Positions 3,602-8,379 of a DNA stretch of 47,986 nt are shown in pieces. This stretch comes from a virus. The DNA lies in the IMG/VR virus record IMGVR_UViG_3300050821_002564, positions 1-47,986 of that record, one strand, 5' to 3'. A model generated the notes under the pieces. It did no database searches, had not been told where the DNA came from, and worked only from the letters and a program-made list of their open reading frames with translations. Positions within the stretch are counted from its first letter, which is position 1. Each line of letters opens with the position of its first letter. Made by a program: the position numbers and the translations under genes.

Positions 3602-4042
3602 ATGCTAAATTGCAAGTGTCTAGGTAACCGTGATTGGCAAAAATACGGACAATTCGTGTTCTCCCAGCATGCCCCTGGACGCGGCTCGTGCACGGCGATC
3701 CTCCCGCGAGAGCAGACCGCTTCAGGAGTAGAGCTACCTCTGCAAATCCAGGCACCTGTCATCACTCCGGCGAATACCGCCTCTCTCGTGGGGGCCAAAG
3801 GGCGCATATCGGAGCGGCTGGCCGAGTGGCATCGGCAATCATCTGTGATTCACTCCTCAAAGTCATGTTCTGGCCTCAGGGTCAGTTTTCCCAGGCAACG
3901 GGCGGTTAGTCGATACCGCAAACGGGCATACGTCCTGGTCCTATTTGGAAACGGGAAAAACGGGCAGTACGGGGAGCCGATCAGATGCAGGGAACAGCAG
4001 AGAAGTCCCTTTTCCAAAGGGAATGCCCGAGATGTGTCCTGA
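3602..4042 (+). CDS. Doubtful ORF in a low-density region (3514-4076)
   Basis: The 563 bp between 3513 and 4077 hold no convincing conserved gene. One frame of 146 aa begins at ATG 3602 behind a textbook AGGAGG (spacing 4), but it is Ser/Arg/Cys-rich, matches nothing I know, and its codon use looks less GC3-biased than its neighbours. The same stretch has a short direct repeat around TGTCTAGGT (about 3543 and 3618). It may be a real orphan gene, a decayed gene, or a regulatory spacer ahead of the methyltransferase block. Confidence 0.3.
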   Translation: MLNCKCLGNRDWQKYGQFVFSQHAPGRGSCTAILPREQTASGVELPLQIQAPVITPANTASLVGAKGRISERLAEWHRQSSVIHSSKSCSGLRVSFPRQRAVSRYRKRAYVLVLFGNGKNGQYGEPIRCREQQRSPFSKGNARDVS

Positions 4043-4076
4043 CGGCCCCAGGTACAGGGCAGCAAAGGAGAAAAGA

Positions 4077-4676
4077 GTGGATGTAGCGAACCTAAATCGC
4101 GTGATGAAACGGGTGCCCATCTCCGTCGTGGATAAGGGTTGGGCCTATGGCGTGTGGTACTGCGGCACATCGTTCACGAAATCCGGAATGTACGGGCAGT
4201 ATCCGCCGACATTTCTCAAGCGAGCCTCAGCTCTGTTTCCCAATGCGAGAACGGTTCTCCATGCCCCGTCAGGATCCTTGGTTGGCCTGCCAGAAGGTCA
4301 TGTGACGCTGGACATCTACGAAGATGACATGCGGAAGCCGATGTTCAAAGGGGACTGCGGAAACATGCCGTTCGATGCCGGGACGTTCGACCTGATTCTG
4401 AGTGACCCGCCCTACTCTGAAGAGGACAGCCGCCTCTATGGGTGCGCCAAGTTCCCGGAGAGGAAGTTTATGGAAGAATGCCATCGCGTGCTGAACCCCA
4501 ACGGCTATCTTGGATTCCTCGCCTACCACTATCCGTCCTATCGGCGGACAGACTGGAAACTCTGCGGCCTCTTCGCTGTCGTGACCGGATACTCGCGGCG
4601 GACGCGGATGTTCTCCGTATTTCAGAAGGTCAACGTGACTCAGAGCGCATTACCGTTTGACGAAACGAATTCCTGA
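4077..4676 (+). CDS. DNA methyltransferase, DPPY type (N6-adenine or N4-cytosine)
   Basis: 199 aa from GTG 4077, chosen because AAAGGAG sits 6 bp upstream; a longer in-frame extension to 3945 lacks a ribosome site. The catalytic motif IV is DPPY at residues 110-113, preceded by the hydrophobic strand 'FDLILS', as in class I SAM-dependent amino-methyltransferases. An acidic/Asn loop 'DCGNMPFDAGTFD' before it fits the region that contacts the target. A later 'CHRVLNPNGYLGFL' is the usual post-motif IV strand. A compact orphan phage enzyme; no cognate restriction gene is obvious, so self-protection against host restriction is likely. Confidence 0.75.
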   Translation: MDVANLNRVMKRVPISVVDKGWAYGVWYCGTSFTKSGMYGQYPPTFLKRASALFPNARTVLHAPSGSLVGLPEGHVTLDIYEDDMRKPMFKGDCGNMPFDAGTFDLILSDPPYSEEDSRLYGCAKFPERKFMEECHRVLNPNGYLGFLAYHYPSYRRTDWKLCGLFAVVTGYSRRTRMFSVFQKVNVTQSALPFDETNS

Positions 4677-4701
4677 TTTTTGGGCAGCAAAGGAGGGGGA
4701 T

Positions 4702-4872
4702 GTGATAACGGGAGTCTCACCGGATAAAGTAGTCTTTCGGTGTGAGGCGATGGCCCGCGAACTGGCGAGGCTGACGCGGCGCATGACGGGCGATCAAACG
4801 CGCCTCGTGAACGACGGAGTTGGGATCTGGCACGTCTACCGCTGGACGGGATCGGAGTGGTATCTGGTATGA
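4702..4872 (+). CDS. Small hypothetical protein
   Basis: 56 aa from GTG 4702, behind AAAGGAGG with 7-8 bp spacing. An overlapping ATG at 4700 is followed at once by a stop and cannot be the start. A basic helix 'AMARELARLTRRM' is followed by the strand pair 'VGIWHVYRWTGSEWYLV'. No family recognised. Confidence 0.55.
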   Translation: MITGVSPDKVVFRCEAMARELARLTRRMTGDQTRLVNDGVGIWHVYRWTGSEWYLV

Positions 4873-5045
4873 CGAAAGAAGGCGTCGAGCATGTCTGGTC
4901 GCAGGTTGCAGCCATCGCGGGTTATCTGCGAGAAAACGTCTGGCCAAAGAAAGCGGAGCCGCCCCAACCAAAGATCGAAACTGAAAAGCAAAAGCCAAAG
5001 CAGCTCACCATCTCGGAAGTCTACGGGGATATTGAAATCCGATGA
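4869..5045 (+). CDS. Small protein with HVW...Y-L...VW helix, copy 1
   Basis: 58 aa, ATG 4869 (ATGA overlap). The N-terminal helix 'HVWSQVAAIAGYLRENVW' is followed by a Lys/Pro/Gln-rich tail. The next tiny gene carries a clearly related helix, so the two look like tandem duplicates. Function unknown. Confidence 0.55.
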   Translation: MTKEGVEHVWSQVAAIAGYLRENVWPKKAEPPQPKIETEKQKPKQLTISEVYGDIEIR

Positions 5046-5128
5046 CCCCTTCAGAGACAGCTCACCTGTGGCGGCAGATCGCCCAAATCGCTGATTATTT
5101 GAAAACGAAGGTCTGGGGGAAGAGATGA
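5042..5128 (+). CDS. 28-aa microprotein, related to the preceding gene (copy 2)
   Basis: ATG 5042 to TGA 5128, overlapping both neighbours by 4 nt. The helix 'HLWRQIAQIADYLKTKVW' aligns with 10 of 18 identities to the helix of the upstream 58-aa protein. The retained frame, paralogy and ATGA junctions argue that this very short gene is translated. Confidence 0.5.
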   Translation: MTPSETAHLWRQIAQIADYLKTKVWGKR

Positions 5129-5895
5129 GGCCGACGATGGGCAGTCTGTTTGCTGGCATAGGGGGATTTGATCTTGGCTTTGAGCGTGCCGGCTTTGAGA
5201 TTGCGTGGCAGGTAGAAATAAACGAGTGGTGCCGCGGCGTGCTGAGAAAGCACTTCCTAAAGGCGGAAAGGTTCGATGATGTCAGAACAGTTGGAAGCTA
5301 TAACCTTAGGCCAGTTGACGTTCTCGCCGGCGGATTTCCATGCCAGGACATATCCAGCGCCGGCCGCATGGCCGGAATCGACGGAGAGCGCTCTGGCCTA
5401 TGGAGTGAATACGCCAGAATCATTGGTGAGCTACGACCCCGTTTCGTCGTCGTGGAGAACGTCGCAGCTTTGCTTGAACGGGGAATGGGCCGAGTTCTTG
5501 GAGACTTGGCCAGCCTCGGGTACGACGCGGAATGGGAAGTTGTATCCGCGTGTGCCGTTGGTGCGCCACATATGCGAAAGCGCGTGTGGATTGTGGCCTA
5601 CCCCGACAGCGAGCGACTACAAGGGTGGAGCGCCTTTGGGAAGGGATGGGGAACTGAAACATTTCCTGAAAAGGCGGTATGGCGGGACTTACCCACACCC
5701 TACGTTTGTCGAGGCTCTGATGGGATACCCGATAGGGCACACAGATTGCACGCCCTTGGAAACGCCGTAGTGCCCCAAATCCCCGAAATGATAGCCAGAA
5801 GGCTTATGGCGCGTTTGGAGGTATCCCAGCCTCACTCGGAGGCTTCCGACGCCCCTGAAACGGCACAGAACGCGCTAGAAAGCGGTTCTCGTTGA
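5125..5895 (+). CDS. dcm: DNA cytosine-5 methyltransferase
   Basis: 256 aa, ATG 5125 after GGGGGAAGAG. It carries the ordered C5-MTase motifs: motif I FAGIGGFDLG (residues 9-18), motif IV GGFPCQDIS with catalytic Cys73, motif VI ENV (111-113), a motif VIII variant MRKRVWIVAYP (from 150), and motif X LGNAVVP (211-217). The target-recognition stretch between VIII and X is very short (~50 residues), as in compact phage enzymes. It transfers methyl from SAM to C5 of cytosine, probably protecting phage DNA. Unusually, 495 nt of the gene are also read in the +1 frame by a second, family-recognisable gene (next entry). Confidence 0.9.
   Translation: MRPTMGSLFAGIGGFDLGFERAGFEIAWQVEINEWCRGVLRKHFLKAERFDDVRTVGSYNLRPVDVLAGGFPCQDISSAGRMAGIDGERSGLWSEYARIIGELRPRFVVVENVAALLERGMGRVLGDLASLGYDAEWEVVSACAVGAPHMRKRVWIVAYPDSERLQGWSAFGKGWGTETFPEKAVWRDLPTPYVCRGSDGIPDRAHRLHALGNAVVPQIPEMIARRLMARLEVSQPHSEASDAPETAQNALESGSR
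5276..5770 (+). CDS. Overprinted 'WPTP/MGYPIGHT' protein encoded inside dcm
   Basis: 164 aa in the +1 frame, wholly inside the cytosine methyltransferase gene (ATG 5276 or 5279, TAG 5768-5770). It is not a random shadow. It carries the ordered features of a phage and prophage protein family I recognise: 'FSPADFHARTYP', 'SSSWRTSQLCL', 'FLETWPASGTTRNGKLYP', 'LWPTPTASDYKGG' (residues 106-118) and the C-terminal 'FVEALMGYPIGHTD ... LETP'. In other phages this family is often annotated as a hypothetical protein next to a C5 methyltransferase. No catalytic motif is evident and the function is unknown. No strong ribosome site precedes 5276, so initiation might be by translational coupling or an internal start. 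Confidence 0.65.
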   Translation: MMSEQLEAITLGQLTFSPADFHARTYPAPAAWPESTESALAYGVNTPESLVSYDPVSSSWRTSQLCLNGEWAEFLETWPASGTTRNGKLYPRVPLVRHICESACGLWPTPTASDYKGGAPLGRDGELKHFLKRRYGGTYPHPTFVEALMGYPIGHTDCTPLETP

Positions 5896-6191
5896 TTCGG
5901 CCACGCTCCAGACTCAGGCGCGGGGAGCCTACGCCGGCCGAGAAGCAGGCAGCGCGGGAATACTGCCGGGAGCGTGCTTCGGGGATGTGCCAGCTCCGGG
6001 TGTCGCCGTTGTGCTCCCAAAACAGGGTGCTGCCTATGGATGGCGATCTGCTGGAACGGGGGCATTTGCATCACGTTCTGGCGAAGCGTCGATTCGGCTG
6101 GATGGAGAACGGCCAGCAGCGGCATTTGTGGGTCTGCCCCTGGTGCCACGACTGGGAACATCGGGGAGGAAAACCATGTCCGAGCAAGTAG
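5892..6191 (+). CDS. HNH-endonuclease-like zinc protein
   Basis: 99 aa if started at TTG 5892 (TTGA overlap with the dcm stop). The layout is a basic N-terminus, then 'CQLRVSPLC', 'RGHLHHVL' and a closing 'CPWCHDWEH'. This is the HNH arrangement with His-His on the first strand and a C-x2-C-H zinc knuckle holding the last His. The central Asn is not obvious, so activity is uncertain. Homing, packaging-associated nicking or a partner of the adjacent PD-(D/E)XK nuclease are all possible. Confidence 0.65.
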   Translation: MIRPRSRLRRGEPTPAEKQAAREYCRERASGMCQLRVSPLCSQNRVLPMDGDLLERGHLHHVLAKRRFGWMENGQQRHLWVCPWCHDWEHRGGKPCPSK

Positions 6192-6517
6192 AAGTTCCGC
6201 GGGCGCGAAGTGTGGGAGAAGAGGCGTTTGCGCTCCATTGCCGCGCTGAGAAACTGACCCCGGAGCGCGAATACCGAATCTCCGATAAGACCAAACATCG
6301 CTTCGACTTCGCTTTCGTGGAGCAGCGCATCCTCGTGGAGATTCAGGGCAGTACCTGGACGGGCGGGCGGCACACGCGCGGCAAGGGCTATGAAGCGGAC
6401 TGCCGGAAAGCGAATCTGGCGGTATTCCTCGGCTGGAGGCTGTTGCGCTACACGACGGAGATGGTCCTAGCGGGCGATGCGATCAACGATGTTCTGGCCC
6501 TGTTAAGCATCCCTTAG
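6176..6517 (+). CDS. PD-(D/E)XK endonuclease-like protein (VSR/DUF559-like)
   Basis: 113 aa, ATG 6176 after GGGGAGGAAAACC, overlapping the HNH-like gene by 16 nt. The core reads 'HRFDFAFVEQRILVEIQGS' then 'TGGRHTRGKGYEADCRKANL' and 'GWRLLRYTTEMV'. This is the phage nuclease family with an Asp, an E-x-(D/Q)-G motif and a conserved W-T-x-G-R-H-x-R-G loop, in a VSR-type PD-(D/E)XK fold. The last catalytic position is Gln rather than the commoner Asp. It probably cuts DNA during replication or recombination, or acts on host DNA. Confidence 0.75.
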   Translation: MSEQVEVPRARSVGEEAFALHCRAEKLTPEREYRISDKTKHRFDFAFVEQRILVEIQGSTWTGGRHTRGKGYEADCRKANLAVFLGWRLLRYTTEMVLAGDAINDVLALLSIP

Positions 6518-6557
6518 CCTCTCAGGACGCTCTTAGGGCGCAGGAAGAGGTGAGCGT

Positions 6558-6722
6558 GTGATTGTTTATCTGTCCTTGCTCGTGTGTTTGATTGGCGTGC
6601 TGATGTACGCCTTGTGCGTGAATCCTAAGTTGGCAGAGATTGGCCGTACGATGATGTGGACGGGGATGTTGGCCTTTTTGATGGAAGTGGGAGCGGGAAG
6701 GGTGTTACCGCTCGGGCGTTGA
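6558..6722 (+). CDS. Small two-helix inner-membrane protein
   Basis: 54 aa from GTG 6558 with GAGGTGA upstream. Two hydrophobic helices (about 2-19 and 31-45) flank a loop 'CVNPKLAEIGRTMMW'. This NPK-x-AEIGR loop is recurrent in small phage membrane proteins near recombination genes; their function is unknown, and a holin or superinfection-exclusion role is only a guess. Its 3' end overlaps the 3' end of the convergent leftward gene by 18 bp. Confidence 0.7.
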   Translation: MIVYLSLLVCLIGVLMYALCVNPKLAEIGRTMMWTGMLAFLMEVGAGRVLPLGR

Positions 6723-6911
6723 CTCTTCTTTCCGTGCCTCAGAAGAGGCGGCAATTCGGTTGAGCGCATCCACAATTTCTCTATGGCGTTCTGCTTCGGC
6801 AATGCAGCGATTGCAGAGCCAACCCCAGCCGAGGTCGAATGGTTTGCCACACTCTGAACACTGCCAGAGGATTGCCCTACCCGACCTATCGCGCCTCAGG
6901 ACACGTTCCAT
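6705..6911 (-). CDS. Zinc-ribbon microprotein, last gene of the leftward operon
   Basis: 68 aa, ATG at 6911. Two CxxC pairs (CSEC ... CNRC) with a Gly/Trp-rich loop form a treble-clef or zinc ribbon, followed by a charged helix 'EAERHREIVDALNRI'. It overlaps the DUF551 gene start-wise by 26 nt and converges on the rightward early operon. Function unknown. Confidence 0.65.
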   Translation of the reverse strand: MERVLRRDRSGRAILWQCSECGKPFDLGWGWLCNRCIAEAERHREIVDALNRIAASSEARKEESTPER

Positions 6912-7230
6912 GCCTCGCCTCTTTCTCTCGTGCTTCGCGTCTTCTCCAGCCTTCGGCCTGCTGGAGGATGGCAGCTTTTCTGAGCAAGTCCGGCTCCCGC
7001 TCGGCCTTCCGCATCAGGAACCATACCCGGTCGCTCATTGCGGGCGGCTCCGGCAACGACATCCAGTGCGTCACCTTTCCCCAAGCGGGAATAGCTGGTG
7101 ACCACAATGGCTCTGGCATCGTGTCCCATTTAAACCACGAGGTCACGTAATAGCCTGCCTCGCTGAAATAAGCCAGAACATCCTTGCGCTCCTCCGGCAA
7201 CCGATCCTTGACGCTAATCCACTCGCTCAT
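6886..7230 (-). CDS. DUF551 domain protein
   Basis: 114 aa, ATG at 7230. Residues 1-60 carry the DUF551 signature: 'EWISVKDRLPEERKDVLAYF' at the N-terminus and 'THWMSLPEPP' at the end of the domain. The C-terminal 45 residues are a charged helix not belonging to DUF551. DUF551 proteins are common in phage accessory regions and have no established function. Confidence 0.85.
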   Translation of the reverse strand: MSEWISVKDRLPEERKDVLAYFSEAGYYVTSWFKWDTMPEPLWSPAIPAWGKVTHWMSLPEPPAMSDRVWFLMRKAEREPDLLRKAAILQQAEGWRRREAREKEARHGTCPEAR

Positions 7231-7474
7231 GCTGGCGCTCCGTTCGAAAGTGGCAGTTATAGCAGCCCACGATAGTATTTGCGGAGGCTGGAATCGTCAG
7301 AGAGTACAGTTCGTCTTCTCCGCAGACAGGGCACAAGGGCCAACCATCTTCTCTAAACTCAGCGTAGGCAAATGTGGAACCATGCCTGCGATATGTCAGG
7401 GTATTTTCCTTCATGCGCGCCCCCAGAACAGATCGCACAGCCTCGTCCACCATCCAGCGCGTCGGATGCCACAC
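7214..7474 (-). CDS. Zinc-ribbon protein
   Basis: 86 aa from GTG 7474 (weak AGGA upstream); an internal ATG at 7414 would give 66 aa. C-terminal CPVC ... CYNC pairs are 24 residues apart with the usual beta-hairpin spacing. The N-terminus 'MVDEAVRSVLGARMKENTLTYRRHG' is helical. Similar ribbons recur throughout this operon. Confidence 0.6.
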   Translation of the reverse strand: MWHPTRWMVDEAVRSVLGARMKENTLTYRRHGSTFAYAEFREDGWPLCPVCGEDELYSLTIPASANTIVGCYNCHFRTERQHERVD

Positions 7475-7558
7475 TGAATCCTAGGCAGGGAAGCCTCAAG
7501 ATCGACGTGAGCCGAGCCGGGCAGACGGTAAAATAAACGGACATTCGGACTTTTGGGG

Positions 7559-8140
7559 CTATTCATGGGCCGCCTCCACGGGTTTTGACACAGGCAACTT
7601 CATCCGCAATGCAGCGTCTTTGGCGAACTCAAAGGCCCTGACGCGCTCCTCGCTGACTTCGGAACCGTTGTCTGGGTATTCGCTCGGATTGCTCTTGCGG
7701 ATACCGACGTTCTCCCAATCCTCCAAAGTCTTCCAGAGGCAACCCATCCGCACCATTCTGGTGCCATCCTGAAAGAGAATAGCCCATACCTCATAACGAT
7801 AGAGGCCAGTGAAAACGCGAAGCGATTGAATTTTTCCACCGCTCAGGACGGCACCGCTCAGGTCGGCATCGCTCAGGTCGGCATCGCTCAGGTCGGCACC
7901 GCTCAGGTCGGCATCGCGCAGGTCGGCACCGCGCAGGTCGGCACCGCTCAGGTCGGCATCGCTCAGGTCGGCACCGCTCAGGTCGGCATCGCTCAGGTCG
8001 GCATCGCTCAGGTCGGCACCGCGCAGGACGGCACCGCGCAGGGATTTCTTTGCTGCAACCGCAGCGGTTACGAGTTCAAAAACAGTCTTCGCGCCTTCCA
8101 GTGCAAAGATGACTTCGCCCCAACAAGTTTTTAGTTCCAT
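7559..8140 (-). CDS. Pentapeptide-repeat protein
   Basis: 193 aa, ATG at 8140 behind GGAGGGGGAGAAG. Residues ~33-100 are 13 consecutive pentapeptides of A(D/V)LSx/ADLRx type, forming a short right-handed quadrilateral beta-helix of about three coils. A helical N-terminal segment precedes it, and the ~95-residue C-terminal part contains '[21 protein letters not shown]', a beta-rich domain seen attached to pentapeptide repeats in other phages. Pentapeptide proteins of the Qnr/MfpA class mimic DNA and bind gyrase, but this helix is much shorter, so that role is only a possibility. The repeats are almost identical at DNA level. Confidence 0.85.
7842..8046 (-). repeat. Thirteen-unit 15-bp tandem repeat inside the pentapeptide gene
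   Basis: The + strand shows near-perfect 15-mers GCTCAGGTCGGCATC, with third-codon-like variation limited to ATC/ACC and CTC/CGC. Each unit encodes one pentapeptide. The low divergence implies recent expansion or ongoing gene conversion, so copy number probably varies between relatives. Confidence 0.85.
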
Positions 8141-8169
8141 GTCTCTTCTCCCCCTCCTGTAAACCAGCT

Positions 8170-8379
8170 CTAGTGAAAATCCTTTTCCCGCAGCCCATAC
8201 GCGTCCATGAGATAGCGGTACTCGTCGCCGTGGAAGCGTTTGGGCAAGCCAGATTCGCGTTCGGGTTCTTCATGTGGCCCCGGACACTTCCAGCGTGGGT
8301 AGCCCAGGAAACCCTTCACCTGGACCAGGACCTGACCGCAATCAGGGCAGCGCAGCACATCCTGCTCGACCTGGGTCAT
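8170..8379 (-). CDS. Zinc-ribbon microprotein
   Basis: 69 aa, ATG at 8379 overlapping the upstream stop (ATGA); a longer upstream extension in the same frame is unlikely because it lies inside the next gene. 'CPDCGQ' and 'WKCPGPH' give a C-x2-C ... C-x3-H metal site; the C-terminal half is charged and aromatic. Function unknown. Confidence 0.6.

Follow-up and report, generated by a model that had tools for sequence, protein, structure and literature searches.

C5 cytosine DNA methyltransferases divided between two polypeptides occur naturally, as in M.AquI, which targets CYCGRG, and M.EcoHK31I, which targets YGGCCR. Lee, Kam and Shaw reportedly found in 1995 that the gene for the small subunit of M.EcoHK31I lies inside that for the large one, in another frame. 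The multispecific C5 methyltransferases of Bacillus phages, for their part, house several target-recognition domains in the interval from motif VIII to motif IX.

The large polypeptide of M.EcoHK31I holds motifs I–VIII and X as well as the predicted target-recognition domain, leaving only motif IX to the small polypeptide (PMC3404938). In phages of the 5093 group of Streptococcus thermophilus, C5 methyltransferase products are described as totally overlapping in different frames, likewise in phage MM1 and Tn5252; the passage on the S. thermophilus overlap is a remark that gives neither a selection test nor a function (PMC5601072). M.EcoHK31I, M.AquI and this streptococcal remark were the only prior descriptions found in the literature searched, in which the near-universal distribution, the repeated WPTPT modules and the nested open reading frame (ORF) even in single-chain enzymes, all reported below, appear to be undescribed.

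Two overlapping genes in a viral window

The window analyzed here is a stretch of 47,986 nucleotides, positions 1 to 47,986 of the IMG/VR virus record IMGVR_UViG_3300050821_002564. It contains a C5 methyltransferase gene (alpha, frame 0) and, nested within it in the +1 frame, a second gene (beta). The features of the locus are as follows.

5125–5895, plus strand: alpha, C5 cytosine methyltransferase of 256 aa; ATG at 5125, stop at 5895; motifs I–VIII and X
5265–5279, plus strand: Shine–Dalgarno-like GGAAAGG (5265–5271) ahead of the beta ATG at 5276, with a second ATG at 5279; duplex energy -7.1 kcal/mol
5276–5770, plus strand: beta, nested +1-frame protein of 164 aa; ATG at 5276, stop at 5770; phrog_1008 family
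5338–5346, plus strand: alpha motif IV, catalytic PCQ; invariant in alignment A2 and present in 150 of 150 nested loci
5455–5463, plus strand: alpha motif VI, ENV; EN invariant in alignment A2, and EN[VSQ] in 149 of 150 nested loci
5594–5626, plus strand: beta WPTPTASDYKG module, read +1 across alpha motif VIII (IVAYPDSER)
5693–5746, plus strand: beta motif IX (PHPTFVEALMGYPIGHTD); the alpha reading of the same DNA is SDGIPDRAHRL
5752–5811, plus strand: alpha motif X (ALGNAVVPQIPEMIARRLM); overlaps the end of beta (PLETP); N213 and P217 invariant in alignment A2

Motifs I, IV (PCQ), VI (ENV), VIII and X are all present in alpha and in order, as in a C5 cytosine DNA methyltransferase (PF00145) and as a preliminary description of this DNA had reported. 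The match to Pfam DNA_methylase is strong (5.3e-46) but covers model positions 3–169 of 324 only, and that to phrog_363 reaches 1e-74. The match of M.HhaI to alpha is confined to residues 7–184, ending soon after motif VIII. Alpha lacks a canonical motif IX and has next to no target-recognition region, with only ~53 residues from motif VIII to motif X; the preliminary description had not remarked on the missing motif IX.

The 164-aa protein that the same description had assigned to a known phage family was recovered at exactly 5276–5770 and matches phrog_1008 at 2.9e-27. Its frame is free of stops, stop-to-stop, across 5261–5767. The order of its parts is an N-terminal part over alpha motifs IV–VIII, the WPTPTASDYKG module and motif IX, with T109 invariant and P110 nearly invariant in alignment A3. 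The dual readings SDGIPDRAHRL and LMGYPIGHTD were confirmed in the window, as were ALGNA and PLETP. Sequence searches of Pfam, NCBIfam and the PDB with beta returned no convincing relative, and AlphaFold2 modelling of beta by itself, with 68 sequences, reached no confident fold (pLDDT 63, pTM 0.24).

The conserved C-terminal end of beta, LNPxWVEWLMGFPxGWTD, can be compared with RxLTPxECxRLQGFPD of C5 methyltransferases, and on sequence grounds we identify it as their motif IX. Aligned against C5 methyltransferase profiles with hhalign, the beta profile lands exactly on motif IX, with an E-value of 2e-8 when bridging homologues are included and of 0.001 (probability 21.5%) against canonical enzymes only. 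In two relatives (L215 and L222) the same segment, LNPDWVEWLMGFPIGWTE, lies in the alpha frame directly before motif X. The Pfam DNA_methylase match of L215 extends to model position 319 of 324, compared with 169 of 324 in the window, and L215 is collinear with M.HhaI (LHPRECARVMGYPDSY) at motif IX with a weak score (3 bits); its single-sequence AlphaFold2 model was uninformative (pLDDT 36).

The preliminary description had read MG(F/Y)PIG(W/H)T as an overprint on alpha. This is reversed here: the signature, MG(F/Y)PxGWT, is the methyltransferase's own motif IX, moved to the +1 frame, and (D)DG(I/V)PxRxxRL in alpha is the derived reading. Its broader proposal, that the whole family arose by overprinting of the methyltransferase, fits the N-terminal half over alpha motifs IV–VIII, which looks like a true overprint, but not the C-terminal signature. 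A purely de novo origin of beta was also dropped on recognition of motif IX in it.

Just upstream of alpha, on the plus strand, is an ORF with a methyltransferase domain and a DPPY motif (3945–4676), which from its sequence probably encodes a second, base-modifying enzyme. Directly downstream of alpha on the same strand is a Cys/His-rich, HNH-like ORF with no Pfam match (5892–6191), and also downstream an ORF with a sub-threshold DUF559 match (6176–6514). The minus strand encodes a pentapeptide-repeat protein at 7559–8140, where the repeat DNA is about 90% identical to Rheinheimera phage repeats; matches in a distant DNA search of 4201–8200 fall mostly in this gene. The strand opposite it is open at 7826–8134 as [10 protein letters not shown] repeats.

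Selection on the +1 frame

Expectations were obtained by shuffling synonymous codons with the alpha protein and codon usage kept, which is the right null because the alpha protein constrains the +1 reading. In the window, the +1 frame stays open for up to 169 codons where 68 are expected (p = 0.003, as low as 300 shuffles can give), and the +2 control for up to 59 where 67 are expected (p = 0.58). The test was extended to 80 IMG/VR homologues retrieved by alpha alignment alone, blind to the +1 frame and with AT-rich genomes included. On average they have 4.06 stops in +1, with 7.36 expected; in 73 of them the longest +1 run significantly exceeds expectation. In the +2 control, stops number 14.0 against 13.5 expected and 3 of the 80 runs are significant.

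Amino-acid similarity in the +1 frame is 0.55 among 36 viral sequences with <60% alpha identity, compared with -0.09 +/- 0.013 in shuffles (z = 50). It peaks over alpha residues 100–160 and 181–200 and is near zero over residues 1–40; conservation of +1 sets in at about alpha residue 62. An independent set of 48 bacterial and archaeal representatives gave z = 53, with no signal at either gene end. The preliminary description had proposed purifying selection in the +1 frame as a check, and both sets bear it out. The signal in the +2 frame is much weaker (z = 20–22), and some is expected there because neighbouring frames share bases. Scored against the +1 profile, real genes exceed all 15 of their shuffles in 82 of 82 viral and 63 of 69 genome loci.

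Shine–Dalgarno strength ahead of +1 ATGs is likewise in excess, at -4.73 in viruses (-3.44 +/- 0.25 in shuffles) and -4.04 in genomes (-2.82 +/- 0.29), a family-wide excess of about 4–7 standard deviations. At motif IX, the codon-position entropy is 0.82 bits at the alpha wobble position and 1.38 at the alpha first base, which is the +1 third position. This is the reverse of the normal pattern; the alpha wobble in residues 1–20 has 1.75 bits. With variation greatest at the +1 third position and small at the alpha wobble, +1 is the leading frame at motif IX.

These measurements bear on two readings in which the +1 protein itself is not under selection. One is that the open frame is a passive shadow of the alpha protein and codon usage, from which gene callers built a false family. 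Alpha does force much similarity, as shuffled genes still reach about 80–110 bits against the +1 profile, and the PHROG label of the family is 'DNA methyltransferase'. However, shuffles that preserve protein and codon usage give neither the open frame nor its conservation; they refute the passive shadow and leave it a negligible probability. We give next to no weight either to the idea that the DNA is conserved for itself, with modular target-recognition regions serving as a hot spot of recombination or forming RNA structure. This would suit the tandem repetition of the WPTPT modules and their exchange of frames between relatives, but variation at motif IX sits on the +1 third position, conservation in +1 is far above that in +2, and stops are avoided in +1 only. 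Thus, we conclude that beta is a real coding gene, conserved and nested, and that the DNA is selected in both frames beyond the demands of one, as in an overprinted gene.

Single-chain enzymes of streptococcal phages were first picked as controls (14 closely related representatives, so that their results rest on less than those of the nested set). They too have a long +1 ORF, with a longest run of 163 against 65 expected, significant in 96%, and a conservation of z = 15.5 that is confined between PCQ and a point shortly beyond motif VIII. This ORF (phrog_16143) is a distant relative of the N-terminal half of beta and has no motif IX, which these alpha chains carry themselves. In two bacterial enzymes (L096, L097) and a T4-like one (L107), the shuffle test found no significant +1 signal. 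The +1 C-terminus is similar in phage P1 Dmt and in a Vibrio phage (SIPQRYFLSSKACAGILRRGEKRRKSLPP). In these complete single-chain methyltransferases (P1 dmt, L269, 1424–2230; Vibrio phage VpaJT_1, L270, 954–1710), the +1 ORF lies over motif VIII and ends NTSEW..CLLSQVLEQTSIPQRYFLSSKACAGILRRGEKRRKSLPP.

Distribution and layouts among relatives

A tblastn search with the beta protein matched 345 phage records, all at <60% identity. In the first eight phage loci inspected (Synechococcus, Mycobacterium, Salmonella, Pseudomonas, Bacteroides, Microcystis and others), beta always overlaps a methyltransferase gene in +1. As a rule only alpha is annotated; in Pseudomonas phage phPA-G the +1 frame is annotated instead. 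In Salmonella phage S9-5, phPA-G and MW202462, the +1 ORF begins 4 bases past the alpha start codon and runs for nearly the full gene length.

Loci were also selected by +1 peptide, 80 of the WPTPT/MGFP type and 80, from IMG/VR, of the streptococcal/P1-like type. The peptide lies in +1 over an overlapping alpha ORF in 76 and 79 of these, respectively, or 155 of 160. Three of the remaining five have no alpha match (near a contig edge) and two have a non-overlapping alpha ORF; no standalone beta gene was found among the 160. As all 80 alpha-selected viral homologues also carry the +1 gene, the suggestion that it is maintained with the methyltransferase, overlapping or flanking it, is well borne out. 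Broken +1 frames, which would have spoken against that suggestion, are rare: one stop interrupts the frame in L090, and in Mycobacterium phage OfUltron (L008, 1308–2067) an indel frameshift disrupts both overlapping frames. The OfUltron locus is annotated as two consecutive 'DNA methylase' genes, and the annotation is similar in the Llama, Seabastian and Modragons records.

Nesting prevails in viruses (81 of the 82 loci classified, within L010–L092) and in genomes, where motif IX is located in the +1 ORF in 68 of 80 loci, in the alpha frame in five, in both in one and in neither in six. The titles of the genome records name Pseudomonadota, Bacteroidota, Chloroflexota, Planctomycetota, Actinomycetota, Spirochaetota, Cyanobacteriota and a Methanophagales archaeon; many of these loci may be prophages.

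The number of WPTPT modules per beta varies from 0 to 5 in tandem among relatives, with one in the window, and they lie between the positions of motifs VIII and IX. A single-chain layout is found in L215, L222, L100, L101 and L108. In the last three, which are actinophages, LPTP modules change frame mid-array, some in +1 and some in frame 0, and are followed by in-frame motifs IX and X. In another layout (L099, L231), alpha carries motifs I–VIII and a following +1 ORF carries IX and X. In L099 (Mycobacterium phage Hammer, 1492–2491), gp91 holds I–VIII and gp90, at a +1 offset, holds LPTP modules, IX and X; both are annotated as 'methylases'.

In a quick tree, 57 rows (55 nested, with two in-frame inside) form one supported group (SH-aLRT 99), with many forks open. 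This suggests, at the level of sequence, that nesting had one main origin, with re-fusions afterwards. The nested motif IX is divergent in a Pseudomonas group that falls outside the 57-row group and is possibly a separate lineage of nesting (L229, L235, L237, L238, L241, L245, L247, L249, L258 and L267; the +1 motif IX, SERLTMMGFASDW, was read in L238 and L229). The methyltransferase of L238 lies beside tail-like genes.

Four PHROG families labelled 'DNA methyltransferase' (1008, 16143, 31772 and 10223) match +1-frame nested proteins, and their labels were probably inherited from the overlapping alpha gene. PHROG 1008 matches all 68 beta proteins scanned. Its label is misleading, as the family is the +1 beta protein and not the catalytic chain (phrog_363).

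A proposed two-polypeptide methyltransferase

We consider it likely that the locus specifies a C5 cytosine DNA methyltransferase made of two polypeptides, which would assemble like the halves of M.EcoHK31I, with alpha as the catalytic chain and the nested beta supplying motif IX and target-recognition modules. Alpha would provide the SAM-binding and catalytic large domain (motifs I–VIII) together with motif X. Beta, probably translated separately from its own internal ATG at 5276 behind GGAAAGG, would contribute motif IX and one or more variable WPTPT modules, the small domain that alpha lacks, and its N-terminal half probably docks on alpha. The two chains together would methylate cytosine in a specific context on the phage DNA, and evasion of host restriction is the most plausible purpose. 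We infer the part of beta in target recognition from its position and variability. Of the roles suggested in the preliminary description (cofactor, inhibitor or specificity partner), the last fits best.

It is improbable, in our estimate, that beta is instead an independent accessory factor (a regulator, an inhibitor, a chaperone or an anti-restriction protein) whose gene overprints that of the methyltransferase and whose likeness to motif IX is incidental to its function. The absence of a Pfam, NCBIfam or convincing PDB relative agrees with such a factor, as does selection on a homologue of the N-terminal half (phrog_16143) in single-chain enzymes with their own motif IX. On the other hand, motif IX and most of the VIII–X spacer are gone from alpha in the nested group, beta has a canonical-looking motif IX, L099 and L231 place IX and X together in the +1 ORF, and the strict co-occurrence with alpha fits a subunit. 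Still less probable is a programmed +1 ribosomal frameshift that fuses alpha motifs I–VIII to the beta C-terminus as one enzyme. The actinophage relatives L100, L101 and L108, with I–VIII, LPTP modules, IX and X in one frame, and the split of Hammer gp91 and gp90 at a +1 offset are in keeping with this, but conservation in +1 begins far upstream of any junction (from ~alpha residue 62 on), the +1 frame has its own ATG and Shine–Dalgarno sequence, and window-type motif X remains in the alpha frame, so that a simple fusion would lack X.

A counterpoint to the two-polypeptide enzyme is that single-chain alpha of the streptococcal-phage type has its own motif IX, yet the homologous +1 ORF is still selected. 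Because this motif-IX-less ORF is selected in single-chain enzymes, supplying motif IX is not the sole or original role of beta, and its N-terminal half may be older than its motif IX and have another role. Also weighing against the proposal are the lack of a confident AlphaFold2 fold for beta, the placement of the predicted target-recognition domain of M.EcoHK31I in its large chain, the modest hhalign probability with canonical enzymes only and the low M.HhaI score over motif IX. Tentatively, beta could have begun with its own function, overprinting the catalytic half of a phage methyltransferase that was still a complete single chain (compare the streptococcal phages), then captured the motif IX of that methyltransferase gene via a frameshift and so given rise to an obligate nested two-subunit enzyme. 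The result would be a now ancient, near-universal and unannotated pair across many bacterial phyla and some archaea, with beta as a swappable, multi-module specificity subunit. We regard this history as possible rather than probable.

In prokaryotes, long gene overlaps are a matter of debate in each individual case. Here the overlap is ~150–300 codons long, is under strong selection in both frames and occurs in many phages that are unrelated to each other as well as in the genomes of bacteria from many phyla. Nested +1 genes explain 'DNA methyltransferase' families without a recognisable methyltransferase domain (PHROG 1008 and 16143). We predict that cloning the annotated chain alone would leave many 'orphan' phage C5 methyltransferases inactive. 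A natural enzyme in two parts, its specificity probably carried by a separate modular chain, would also be a system for studying the evolution of DNA recognition.

Compared by description, the window locus resembles M.EcoHK31I in that alpha has motifs I–VIII and X and the small chain has motif IX. Given the overlap reported for M.EcoHK31I, the two also agree in that the small-chain gene (5276–5770) lies inside the other (5125–5895) in a different frame. Unlike M.EcoHK31I, with its predicted large-chain target-recognition domain, the window has its modules in the beta frame and a short VIII–X spacer in alpha. The layout of M.AquI, with I–VIII on one chain and the variable region, IX and X on a second, is shared by L099 (Hammer gp91/gp90) and L231; in the window, by contrast, motif X is in alpha, the small chain lacks it, and beta is nested rather than following. 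The streptococcal alpha examined (L105) differs from the window in having its own motif IX, and its +1 protein has none. Finally, the 0–5 tandem WPTPT modules of beta occupy the same position between VIII and IX as the multiple domains of the Bacillus multispecific C5 methyltransferases, but here the array lies in the +1 frame and on a separate chain.
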